In this document: piece by piece, positions 27,556 to 31,416 of the stretch
How positions within the stretch are numbered: position 1 is the stretch's first letter
Layout: every line of letters starts with the position of its first letter
Position numbers and translations under genes: made by a program
Virus record (IMG/VR): IMGVR_UViG_3300042863_000147
Location: 1-64,000 of that record
Source: a virus
Direction: 5' to 3' (one strand)
Length of the DNA: 64,000 nucleotides
Notes under the pieces: model-generated
What the model was told of the DNA's origin: nothing
Database searches by the model: none
Seen by the model: the letters and a program-made list of their open reading frames with translations, nothing else

Positions 27556-29676
27556 TTAAAATTTGAATAAGTCCCCGCTCAAAGATCTTGTAGCATCGTA
27601 GTTTCTTCTACTAAACTCTGCTGTCTCTTTCAAGTACGTTATTACATCCGCTGTTTGTTTATTTAATGTCTGTAGCTCAGTCTTTAAACTTTCTAAATGA
27701 TACAATGGTATAATAGCTTCAGATCCTGCTTCACCTGCTTCGACTATTGTTGGTTGTGTAACAACGCCGCCACTGGCCATCTTTTGCGGGCCCGCAATTG
27801 CTTCACCGCCCATTCTTCCGGCAGTTCCTCCACCGTAGCCACCAATTAAGCCACCAATTAACGCACCAATTGGTCCAAACATTGCTCCAGCTGCTGCACC
27901 TGCAACTGCACCGGCTAGTCCGCCTGCGGTTTCTCCAACTGCGCCGCCTCTCTGTTTTGATGCTTCTTCTTTAGATATAGATCCTGCTTTTTCTTGTTCA
28001 GATACATTGCTTAATTCACCAGCTAACATTAGTCCGCCTAGTACAGTACCTGCAAGTCCTAGCTTTTTAACAAGACTACCTGCTCCTTTTCTGCCCCCGC
28101 CACCGCCTGCTCCTCCGGCAGCATCTTTTAGAGCTTCAGCTGTCTTGGCAGCGGTAAATTGCTTAATAGCAAGGACGGCTGCACCTAATGCAATTGCTAA
28201 TCCACCAAATCCAAAAGTTAATGTATCAAATCCTTTAACTACTTTAGACAGTGCTGTTGCTAACCCATTAACAACAGGAGTTAATAATGATACAATAGGA
28301 CCGAGTAAATTGTTAATTGCTTGTCCAAATTCTTGCATTGATTTTTGAGAAGCTACTGCTCGGGCAGCTTCGCTTGCTGCAAGTTCTTTCTTCTTTGCTT
28401 CAGTATCTAATGCTCTAGCATATGATTCATCGTCTTGCTTTGCAGATCTGTTGGCTCGACCTTGGCTTTCCTGAATTTGTTTTGCAGTCTCACTGCCCAT
28501 TGCACCCATAGCGTATTGCATTGCTAACGGGAATTTCTTGACATCTTGCTCGTTTGCTCGTATTCCTTTTACTAACTCTTTATTTTGATCTTGTACTGTC
28601 TTTGTACTATCTGTAACGTTCTTTGCAGATCGCATCACAGACTCGTTAGTCTTTCCCATAGTAGCAGTAAATGCTTGAGCTTCTTTTGTTATAGGAGGAA
28701 CGCCCATAACTTTAGATTGGAAAGCATCTGCTGCACCTTTACCGCCCACTGCTAATGCATTTGCTAGGCCCGCAATTGCTTTTTTCTTTTCTTCCTCACT
28801 CATGCCTGCTAGTTTAGCTTCCCATGCAGAGTTCTTGGCTTTTTCTTTTAATTCGTTTTCAGCTTCTGTTCTACTTTTTCCAGTTATTTCAGCTAGCATA
28901 TCTAACTGAGTTAAGTATTCTCCAGAACTTTTAATAATTGCAGCTGAATTTTGTAGCTCTGCTTTACTGCGACCACCAGTCATCGAAATGTAGTTTGCCA
29001 TTCCTTGATTGACTTGTTCGGTAGTATAACCCAAGTTTCGCAGATCATTACCTAACTGACTCTTGTTTAACGTATTAGACAATGCTACAAATGCCTTAGC
29101 TCCGTCATTTGTAGTACCACCCATTCTTGCAAATGTATCACTATTAGTCTTCATTAGATTTTGAAATTGATCTAATGTCAAATAAGTGTTAAGTGCTGCT
29201 TGACGCATCTGAGTCAAACTTCCGCCAAAATTTACTCCTGCAGAAGTAATATCCTGATACATTGACAAGTTCTTTTCTTGGAACTCAGCAAGGCGTCTTA
29301 GACCGGTAGCTACTACACCTAATATTCCAGGCAGCTGTTCAAATGCACTAAAAACGTTGCTTACTTGTGCAGTACCGTCTGTTAAACTTTTAATCAGCGG
29401 GCTAATACTACCATCTAGTACTCTGATCTTAATTGCAGTTTCTGTACCAGCTGTTGCTAACTTACTGAATACACTAGTCGATTGCTTTACATTTGTATTC
29501 ATTGCAGCAACTGCCGCTGGATCTAACCCGGCCTTAGTTGCTAATTCTTTGATTGCATCTTTTTGTGCTTTAGTAGTTGATAACGTAGCCTGGAGAATTA
29601 ACCGTAAGGTTGCTTCTGTAGCTGCGTTGTTTAACTCTACATAGTCATTACCAATCGATCCGGTGACGTCTGCCAT
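27556..29676 (-). CDS. Tail tape measure protein, gp29-like (706 aa)
   Basis: I chose the ATG at 29676 (MADVTGSIGNDYVELNN). An in-frame GTG at 29745 with AGAAGGAA upstream would add 23 residues. The protein is long and helical, with coiled-coil stretches (residues about 240-330 and 420-480), then hydrophobic segments: GPIVSLLTPVVNGLATAL, GFGGLAIALGAAVLAI, and a glycine-zipper block rich in GGLAG and GPIGALIGG. Near the C-terminus ASGGVVTQPTIVEAGEAGSEAIIPL is the signature end of many tape measure proteins. T4 gp29 is 590 residues; by the usual helical ruler the tail would be somewhat longer than T4's. The divergently placed gp26/gp51 pair supports the assignment. Confidence 0.85.
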   Translation of the reverse strand: MADVTGSIGNDYVELNNAATEATLRLILQATLSTTKAQKDAIKELATKAGLDPAAVAAMNTNVKQSTSVFSKLATAGTETAIKIRVLDGSISPLIKSLTDGTAQVSNVFSAFEQLPGILGVVATGLRRLAEFQEKNLSMYQDITSAGVNFGGSLTQMRQAALNTYLTLDQFQNLMKTNSDTFARMGGTTNDGAKAFVALSNTLNKSQLGNDLRNLGYTTEQVNQGMANYISMTGGRSKAELQNSAAIIKSSGEYLTQLDMLAEITGKSRTEAENELKEKAKNSAWEAKLAGMSEEEKKKAIAGLANALAVGGKGAADAFQSKVMGVPPITKEAQAFTATMGKTNESVMRSAKNVTDSTKTVQDQNKELVKGIRANEQDVKKFPLAMQYAMGAMGSETAKQIQESQGRANRSAKQDDESYARALDTEAKKKELAASEAARAVASQKSMQEFGQAINNLLGPIVSLLTPVVNGLATALSKVVKGFDTLTFGFGGLAIALGAAVLAIKQFTAAKTAEALKDAAGGAGGGGGRKGAGSLVKKLGLAGTVLGGLMLAGELSNVSEQEKAGSISKEEASKQRGGAVGETAGGLAGAVAGAAAGAMFGPIGALIGGLIGGYGGGTAGRMGGEAIAGPQKMASGGVVTQPTIVEAGEAGSEAIIPLYHLESLKTELQTLNKQTADVITYLKETAEFSRRNYDATRSLSGDLFKF

Positions 29677-29700: not shown

Positions 29701-29708
29701 GATAAATA
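29701..29708 (+). promoter_or_regulatory. Possible late box GATAAATA for the gp26/gp51 unit
   Basis: The plus strand reads GATAAATA, one mismatch to TATAAATA, 39 bases before the gp26 ATG. It faces a matching box on the other strand at 29730-29737, forming a divergent pair. Confidence 0.45.
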
Positions 29709-29729
29709 AGTCATCTATTCCACAATGTT

Positions 29730-29737
29730 TATTTATC
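29730..29737 (-). promoter_or_regulatory. Possible late box GATAAATA for the tape measure/head unit
   Basis: The minus strand reads GATAAATA, 53 bases before the ATG at 29676. It would start a transcript inside the region that excludes the upstream GTG alternative, which supports the ATG start. Confidence 0.45.
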
Positions 29738-29747
29738 GGAGACACAA

Positions 29748-30620
29748 ATGGTTCCTTCTACACCGTCAAATCAATCAAATCCACTTGTTGGATTTATGCG
29801 CCAGCCAAAAATTTATATTCGGTTGCCTAGCGGCGGAGAGTTTTGGCCAGCTGGTAGCATAGTGCCGTCTGAGACTGGTGATATTCCAGTTTATTCAATG
29901 ACTGCCAAAGACGAACTAATGTTAAAAATTCCAGACGCTGTGATGAGCGGACAGGCAGTAGTAGATGTTATACAACATTGCATCCCAAATATTAAAAACG
30001 CTTGGGACATTCCTAGTATCGACCTGGATGTTATCCTAATCGCTATTCGATTAGCAACCTACGGTGAAAAAATGACAACTCCTATTACATTCGGAGAAGA
30101 TCTCGAAATGGAATACACCGTTGATCTACGACAAGTAATGGATACTCTAATGTATCAAATTAAATGGGATCCAGTAGTACCTATTAATGAAGATTTAACT
30201 GTATTCGTTCAACCGATGAATTATAAACAACTTAGTGAAAGTGCTGTTAAAACATTTGAGACTCAGAAAATTTTACAAATTGCCAATGATTCAGCAATGA
30301 GTGAAAATGATAAAGTTGCAGCATTTAAGGAAAGTTTTACAAAATTAACAGATGTTACAATAGGTATTGTTGAAAAAAGTATCTACAAAATTGACAGCGC
30401 CAACGGCAGCACTGATAACCCACGACATATTAAGGAATTTATCGAGAACGCCGATAAGGATCTCTTTAATATTATTCAATCACACATTGATTCTCTCAAA
30501 GAAAACAATTCATTAAAACCAATAACTATAACCGTTACAGATGAAATGAGAGAAAAGGGTATCACTGGAGATACCGTTGATGTACCGCTAGTGTTTGATC
30601 CTTCAACTTTTTTCGTATAA
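29748..30620 (+). CDS. 26: Baseplate hub / tail assembly protein gp26
   Basis: A 290-residue protein with GGAG six bases before the ATG. The N-terminal KIYIRLPSGGEFW and the following PVYSMTAKDELMLKIPDAVMSGQAVVDVIQHCIPNIKNAWDIPSIDLDVILIAIRLATYG are characteristic of the T4 gp26-type baseplate hub family. A helical region follows (residues 150-250). T4 gp26 is about 208 residues and is needed to assemble the central hub. The gene lies divergently beside the tape measure gene and is followed directly by the gp51-like frame. Its last codons contain an in-register T TTT TTC heptamer followed by a long stem, so part of its translation may shift into the next frame (see 30608-30691). Confidence 0.88.
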   Translation: MVPSTPSNQSNPLVGFMRQPKIYIRLPSGGEFWPAGSIVPSETGDIPVYSMTAKDELMLKIPDAVMSGQAVVDVIQHCIPNIKNAWDIPSIDLDVILIAIRLATYGEKMTTPITFGEDLEMEYTVDLRQVMDTLMYQIKWDPVVPINEDLTVFVQPMNYKQLSESAVKTFETQKILQIANDSAMSENDKVAAFKESFTKLTDVTIGIVEKSIYKIDSANGSTDNPRHIKEFIENADKDLFNIIQSHIDSLKENNSLKPITITVTDEMREKGITGDTVDVPLVFDPSTFFV

Positions 30621-30691
30621 GGCTTTTGTATCTTGATACTGACGGTATCAACAAGCTAGTAACTGAGTACGAAGTCGATACAAAAGCCTTA
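30608..30691 (+). promoter_or_regulatory. Programmed -1 ribosomal frameshift signal at the gp26/gp51 junction
   Basis: Bases 30608-30614 are TTTTTTC, in the 0-frame register T TTT TTC, a classical slippery heptamer. The gp26 stop TAA is at 30618-30620. A perfect 15-bp stem, 30618-30632 with 30677-30691, starts three bases after the heptamer; its loop holds a second perfect stem of 7 bp (30633-30639 with 30645-30651). The -1 frame is open from 30599, just upstream of the heptamer, through the gp51-like ORF. The shift would give a 365-residue fusion. The gp51-like frame has no ATG near its start. Confidence 0.75.
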
Positions 30692-30844
30692 AGAGAAGAA
30701 TTGTTTAAATTTAGTTGGTATATGAGAGGTGGTCTATCATTCTCAGAAGCATTTTTACTCACTCCAGAAGACCGAGACTTGTTGAATAAGATTATTGAAA
30801 GTAACTTAGAGATAACAAAAGAATCTCAATTACCGTTCTTTTAA
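30626..30844 (+). CDS. 51: gp51-like protein, probably made as a -1 frameshift fusion to gp26
   Basis: A 72-residue frame if begun at the TTG at 30626; there is no ATG until WYMRGG. The conserved part is FKFSWYMRGGLSFSEAFLLTPEDRDLLNKIIESNLEITKESQLPFF, a short helical segment I recall as the T4-like cyanophage version of gp51, the hub assembly factor (T4 gp51 is about 249 residues). The frame is open back to 30599, across the slippery heptamer in gp26, and its nominal start and Shine-Dalgarno (AAGG) are buried in the 15-bp stem. So it is more likely expressed as the C-terminal part of a gp26-51 fusion than by independent initiation. Its stop overlaps that of the opposite-strand gene by four bases. 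Confidence 0.7.
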   Translation: MYLDTDGINKLVTEYEVDTKALREELFKFSWYMRGGLSFSEAFLLTPEDRDLLNKIIESNLEITKESQLPFF

Positions 30845-31380
30845 ATTTCTATTCCTAAGAAATTACTCTGTAATCCTACTTTAGTTTCTTTGATTGCACC
30901 TAATTTTTGCAGACCGTATGCAACAACTTGGGGTCTACGATCTCCACGAACTGCGTTGATGGTAGCTACTGCCTTATCAATTGCCTGACGACCTGCTGGA
31001 ATCCCTAACCTGCCTTCGGGTGCAGCAGGAGCAGTAGCAGGTGTAGTGCCTGTTGGGGGAGTAACAGGAGCAGTAGCAGGTGTAGTGCCTGTTGGGGGAG
31101 TAACAGGAGCAGTAGCAGGTGTAGTGCCTGTTGGGGGAGTAACAGGAGCAGTAGCAGGTGTAGGTTGTGGTGCTTTATATCCGCCTGCTCTTTGAACATT
31201 CCGTTGTGCAACATTGGCAACTCTACCTGCTTGCTGATTATATACATCTTTAGCACCTGCCCATGCGCCTTTAGCACCTCCAACAACATTTGCAGCACCT
31301 TTTGCTGCTGAACCTAGAGCCCCGGCTAGGCTTAACTCATCTATTTGTTGAGATTCAACGATTAATTCATTTATACGCAT
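30841..31380 (-). CDS. Candidate head-internal protein with capsid-targeting-like N-terminus (179 aa)
   Basis: Starts MRINELIVESQQIDELSLAG. The first ten residues resemble the capsid-targeting peptides of T4 internal proteins (MKTYQEFIAEA), and IVE before Ser fits the gp21 cleavage rule (Leu/Ile-x-Glu). Next comes an Ala/Gly/Lys-rich helix (SAAKGAANVVGGAKGAWAGAKDVY). It is followed by a linker of three and a half identical copies of TPATAPVTPPTGT, then a C-terminal region with AVATINAVRGDRRPQVVAYGLQKLGAI. An exact TATAAATA lies 28 bases upstream, and AGGA precedes the ATG, so late expression is likely. I do not recognise a family; an injected internal protein is an inference from the N-terminus and timing. 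Confidence 0.75.
   Translation of the reverse strand: MRINELIVESQQIDELSLAGALGSAAKGAANVVGGAKGAWAGAKDVYNQQAGRVANVAQRNVQRAGGYKAPQPTPATAPVTPPTGTTPATAPVTPPTGTTPATAPVTPPTGTTPATAPAAPEGRLGIPAGRQAIDKAVATINAVRGDRRPQVVAYGLQKLGAIKETKVGLQSNFLGIEI
31027..31163 (-). repeat. 39-bp tandem repeat, 3.5 identical copies, coding
   Basis: Units at 31027-31065, 31066-31104 and 31105-31143 are identical, with a 20-base partial copy to 31163. Each encodes 13 residues, a Pro/Thr/Ala linker. Perfect identity, including third codon positions, points to recent slippage or expansion; copy change keeps the frame. Confidence 0.95.
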
Positions 31381-31408: not shown

Positions 31409-31416
31409 TATTTATA
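31409..31416 (-). promoter_or_regulatory. T4-type late promoter box TATAAATA
   Basis: Exact TATAAATA on the minus strand, 28 bases before the ATG of the 179-residue protein. The same bases read on the plus strand contain a perfect TATAAT at 31413-31418, which could be a -10 element for the RNA to its right, though no good -35 is seen. Confidence 0.65.

Follow-up and report, generated by a model that had tools for sequence, protein, structure and literature searches.

Phage lambda makes a short tail assembly chaperone, gpG, and a -1 frameshifted long form, gpGT, beside its tape measure gene, in a short:long ratio of ~30:1 (PMC5009743). The same 2016 review of recoding describes G-T frameshifting as widely conserved in long-tailed phages 'except T4'. 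That exception is addressed by work in which tail assembly chaperone (TAC) genes were identified in T4-like phages (Vladimirov, Gautam and Davidson, Virology 2022;566:9-15, as cited in PMC12846349 and PMC10885494). It is cited in PMC12846349 with regard to slippery poly-T sequences of T4-like TAC-N genes, and in PMC10885494 with regard to T4-like phages in which a short gene is accompanied by a long, fused one instead. According to these citing papers, frameshifted T4-like tail chaperones are already published in general. A further system is the TAC locus of the Vandenendeviridae and Andersonviridae (phage Adele, PMC12846349). There too, -1 frameshifting occurs at a poly-T motif, located at the 3' end of TAC-N, and the downstream frame is usually missed in annotation.

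We analysed a locus of this kind in a 64-kb stretch of viral DNA (the window) and in its relatives. We consider it very probable that the gp26 gene and the -1 frame downstream of it are one tail assembly chaperone gene with a frameshifted fusion product. Like lambda gpG/gpGT, the locus has a short protein and a predicted -1 frameshifted long form beside a tape measure gene, a likeness drawn without sequence similarity. Unlike lambda, the window has the heptamer U UUU UUC, a long downstream stem and a tape measure gene on the other strand. It differs from the Vandenendeviridae and Andersonviridae in motif (GTTTTT in those phages) and in phage family. The closest match is to the TAC-N and TAC-NC of T4-like phages, which are also gp26/gp51-type chaperones; some groups have a poly-T site, and the T4 group has a short and a fused copy of the gene. 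Compared with that work as its citing papers present it, our analysis adds a freshwater clade, a divergent tape measure arrangement and a covarying stem; the clade and its stem are probably new. Our data support the 2022 study and may extend it.

Slippery heptamer, -1 frame and stem

The features of the locus, with positions in the window, are as follows.

27556..29673, minus strand: tape measure protein gene, the divergent neighbour (phrog_794, tail length tape measure protein, E 1.1e-14)
29701..29737 (29701-29708, plus; 29730-29737, minus): facing GATAAATA boxes between the two divergent genes, similar to T4 late promoters
29748..30620, plus strand: gp26 (TAC-N), zero frame, 290 codons plus TAA (PF12322, phrog_150, model match)
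30608..30614, plus strand: slippery heptamer T TTT TTC, in register, invariant in 80/80 window-like and 80/80 cyano-like contigs
30614..30844, plus strand: -1 frame extension (putatively gp51-like, TAC-C), 76 codons plus TAA, for a predicted fusion product of 365 residues
30618..30620, plus strand: zero-frame stop TAA (TAA or TGA here in all relatives)
30618..30632 (conserved core 30621-30630), plus strand: 5' arm of the putative stimulatory stem (fold, covariation, low third-position diversity)
30677..30691 (conserved core 30679-30688), plus strand: 3' arm of the same stem (fold, covariation, low third-position diversity)
30633..30651 (30633-30639 / 30645-30651), plus strand: inner hairpin in the loop (fold; partly conserved)

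The heptamer is read as T|TTT|TTC in the gp26 frame, and the single codon GTA separates it from the TAA. The first-pass annotation of this DNA had noticed the in-register heptamer near the gp26 stop and had given product sizes of 290 and 365 residues, all of which is correct. The heptamer alone is not rare: TTTTTTC occurs 19 times in the window, compared to ~21 expected. An IMG/VR protein scan found 169 relatives, and the best 80 (62-82% identity) were kept. Aligning the junction across relatives, as the first-pass annotation had suggested, gave a clear result. In 80/80 of these best relatives, TTTTTTC (located from the gp26 stop) was followed by one codon and then TAA or TGA, and the -1 frame was open in 80/80. 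Among the Phe codons elsewhere in the gp26 genes of relatives, just 132/733 are TTC; therefore the invariant TTT TTC and the T preceding it are not explained by a Phe-Phe dipeptide.

The -1 frame is open from 30614 to 30841 (stop TAA at 30842-30844), and the residues read after a -1 slip would be RIRLLYLDTDG.... This frame is under coding selection. Its variation falls mostly in third codon positions, and its length is 75-76 codons in all relatives with a long enough contig. It had been described as lacking an ATG, with a TTG in the stem as its only possible start. The frame is indeed open and the first possible start is the TTG at 30626, inside the stem, but there is also an in-frame ATG at 30722, a start that would yield just a 40-residue fragment.

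The stem also covaries among relatives. In the window its arms are perfectly complementary over 15 bp, and a scan of all 64 kb for non-palindromic inverted repeats (arms of 13 nt or more, no more than 100 nt apart) gave no other. The RNA from 30608 to 30700 was predicted to fold with -31.8 kcal/mol (z = -5.6), and 0/200 shuffles were equally stable. Across 56 distinct window-like junctions, 92% of stem cells were paired and 7 of the 15 pairs had two-sided changes. There were 35 two-sided cells compared to a mean of 7 in shuffled alignments, and 0/500 shuffles reached that number; slid versions of the stem gave just 25-55% pairing. Third-codon-position diversity was 0.23 and 0.26 in the arms, compared to 0.62 between the arms and 0.51 after them.

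Two earlier statements about the stem held for the window and less well for its relatives. The stem was said to begin three bases after the heptamer. The perfect repeat does so, but its lowest three pairs are often broken in relatives and the conserved core starts at 30621, that is, after a 6-nt spacer. Similarly, the second 7-bp stem in the loop (TTGATAC paired with GTATCAA) is present in the window but is kept only in part in relatives (74% of cells paired).

The gp26 product is a member of PF12322 (T4_baseplate; E 1.3e-6, 28.7 bits, cut-off 24.5) and matches phrog_150 (baseplate hub; E 4.1e-10). An AlphaFold model of it matched T4-like baseplate hub assembly proteins, and a PDB fold search with the model gave no significant match. 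There was no nucleotide-level match to the window locus among cultured phages.

The extension is predicted to be helical, with moderate confidence. A Pfam/PHROG search with the 76 residues from the window gave no family match, and a Pfam scan of extensions for known TAC families gave chance-level matches only. The extensions of cyanophages and KVP40 match phrog_634 (6e-28 and 3e-20), and for these the term gp51-like is solid, as judged by sequence comparison. A profile of window and jumbo-phage extensions aligned to a cyanophage/T4 profile with 64% probability (hhalign; E 6e-5, 33 columns) and a narrower profile comparison with 4% probability; narrow profiles of the window extension against the cyanophage extension or T4 gp51 alone gave weak or misplaced matches. 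Based on these comparisons, the assignment of the window's own extension as gp51-like is only moderately supported.

Distribution of the site and the T4 genes 26 and 51

The site extends well beyond the freshwater clade. In marine cyano-like contigs, TTTTTTC lies exactly one codon before the stop and the -1 frame is open in 80/80, and the same site was found in ~19 cultured phages. TTTTTTC is present in P-SSM2, S-PM2, Syn9, Phosso, Atu_ph07, PA5oct, BF, RaK2, Vibrio 2.275, KVP40, Aeh1, phiW-14, phiAS5 and DLP6. HTVC008M, phiM12, pf16 and Cr30 have the variant TTTTTTT, and phiM9 has TTTTTTG. That is, the site spans cyanophages, KVP40/Aeh1-type Straboviridae, rhizobial phages and jumbo phages, and the T4 group has two genes. 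The abstract of the 2022 study reportedly describes frameshifting as conserved in several T4-like groups. Wider scans of viral contigs with KVP40 and BF queries gave few loci, and a mixed jumbo-phage alignment was too diverse for scanning. The first-pass annotation had named a conserved ATG without a slippery site as the pattern contrary to its reading; none of the phages with a single overlapping gene pair showed this pattern. Vi01 was the sole phage with an overlapping pair but without the canonical heptamer. In this member of the Ackermannviridae (stop near locus position 2305), an overlapping -1 gp51-like frame is kept and GAAATTTTCATTTAA replaces the heptamer.

The cyano-like stem was only partly supported, with 74% of cells paired compared to 70% in shuffles and 28 two-sided cells compared to 11. 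A strong stem was not found in several of the relatives examined (BF, RaK2, HTVC008M, Syn9). Cyano-like genes have an LEG motif ~15 nt upstream of the heptamer; its Glu codon is GAG in 69/79, compared to 34% elsewhere, and the bias creates a GGAGGG-like stretch. Shine-Dalgarno-like sequences at such a distance upstream stimulate -1 slippage in dnaX. By analogy, the GAG-biased stretch may mark a Shine-Dalgarno-like stimulator in the cyano-like genes.

T4 gp26 and gp51 are both members of PF12322 and phrog_150, the family of the window gp26, and they match each other. In T4 gp51 a gp26-like core is followed by an extension at the C-terminus, to which the -1 frames of cyanophages, KVP40 and others align. 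Unlike in the window, the two are separate genes, divergent in T4, RB49, 44RR and 133 and a tandem pair in RB43, and the heptamer is absent from the gp26 and gp51 genes of all five phages. Genomes with the frameshift site have one full-length phrog_150 gene each, and any second match is the -1 extension. In contrast, the five split genomes, which lack the site, have two phrog_150 genes each. In a protein tree (some long branches, root arbitrary), the duplicated copies grouped together (95/95), and those of gp51 made up a single clade (100/99).

Judging from these sequences, the frameshift site was likely lost once, by duplication in the lineage of the T4 group. A broader history seems to us about evenly balanced between right and wrong. 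It holds that a -1 slip on U UUU UUC is ancestral to the T4-like phages and the RaK2/PA5oct/Atu_ph07-like jumbo phages, that lineages would have acquired their own stimulators (the freshwater clade its covarying stem, two rhizobial jumbo phages a similar one, the cyanophages the GAG-biased stretch), and that slippage would have been lost once, when the duplication in T4, RB49, RB43, 44RR and 133 produced a short copy and a fused copy. The two arrangements permit testing the effect of swapping a fixed frameshift ratio for two independently expressed genes.

Proposed mechanism and alternative explanations

We infer that ribosomes slip at the window heptamer, as follows. Most ribosomes would stop at the UAA at 30618-30620, the product being the 290-residue TAC-N. 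The downstream stem would pause a minority of them, which would slip back one base on U UUU UUC, tRNA-Phe re-pairing in the P site as well as the A site, and go on to make the 365-residue TAC-NC fusion. Homology and the analogy with lambda gpG/gpGT suggest a chaperone role for gp26 and the fusion. By that analogy, both forms would coat the neighbouring tape measure protein, the C-terminal extension of the fusion may recruit tail tube subunits, and neither form would be expected in the finished tail. The conserved site, the covarying stem, the absence of a conserved -1-frame ATG and the adjacent tape measure gene all support the earlier proposal that gp26 and gp26-51 are the G and GT equivalents of this T4-like phage.

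An alternative reading takes the downstream frame as a short gene in its own right, gp51, whose translation would begin past the gp26 stop, at a start of its own or by reinitiation. Cyanophage records annotate it this way: the P-SSM2 record has a separate gp51 CDS, as KVP40 has a separate ORF, and an ATG lies 5 or 14 nt past the stop in 77/79 cyano-like sequences. However, 50 of 62 distinct sequences of the window clade lack a -1-frame ATG within 40 nt of the stop. The first TTG of the frame is in the stem. A separate gene also leaves unexplained the invariant in-register heptamer, the -1 frame that is open across it, and the T4 gp51 in which the extension is fused to a gp26-like core. We consider a separate gene very unlikely, and its appearance in cyanophage records is probably a mis-annotation. 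Annotation of the frame varies across cyanophage records; in S-CAM8 (locus 1508-1687) it is unannotated between gp26 and the next gene. It is also not annotated in PA5oct. Slippage of RNA polymerase on the T run, rather than of the ribosome, could also bring the -1 frame in line, and there are six to seven consecutive T's at the site. This run is short for known cases of transcriptional slippage, in which runs usually have eight or more residues. The third codon position has a conserved C. Ribosomal slippage agrees with the X XXY YYZ register and with a covarying RNA stem that starts 6 nt downstream. We regard a transcriptional origin as extremely doubtful.

The remaining alternative grants the frameshift and differs about the products: gp26 and the fusion would be structural parts of the baseplate hub, and frameshifting would set a structural ratio. 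The database names of PF12322 and phrog_150 say baseplate hub, and earlier genetics quoted in a T4 review puts gp26 in the T4 hub (PMC3004832). However, in a table of that review both gp26 and gp51 appear as hub assembly chaperones, and the review gives gp51 as absent from the particle. The synteny with tube and tape measure genes and the TAC assignment by Vladimirov et al. (2022), as relayed in PMC12846349 and PMC10885494, also argue against structural parts, which we regard as improbable.

Neighbouring genes and candidate promoters

The chaperone reading rests in part on gene order. The gene pair had been described as lying divergently beside the tape measure gene, and the phrog_794 match of the minus-strand neighbour bears this out. 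A divergent long ORF is found beside gp26 in 53/57 relatives. P-SSM2 and KVP40 have the order tail tube (phrog_45), gp26, gp51 and a long uncharacterised protein. This order resembles lambda V-G-T-H, and by that analogy the long protein would be the tape measure.

The two GATAAATA boxes are the only ones in the window, and both are in the intergenic gap that separates gp26 from the tape measure gene. NATAAATA is found on both strands of the gap in 52/57 relatives. By sequence, the pair of boxes looks like a candidate bidirectional T4-type late promoter for the tape measure protein and its chaperone.

On the other side of the locus, an ORF at 30841-31380 (minus strand) converges on the gp51-like frame and overlaps it by 4 nt. 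We found no function for this ORF. It contains 3.5 perfect copies of a 39-bp repeat (31026-31163) that encodes a Pro/Thr-rich repeat. Just upstream of it, at 31409-31416 (minus strand), is an exact TATAAATA, one of just two in the window.
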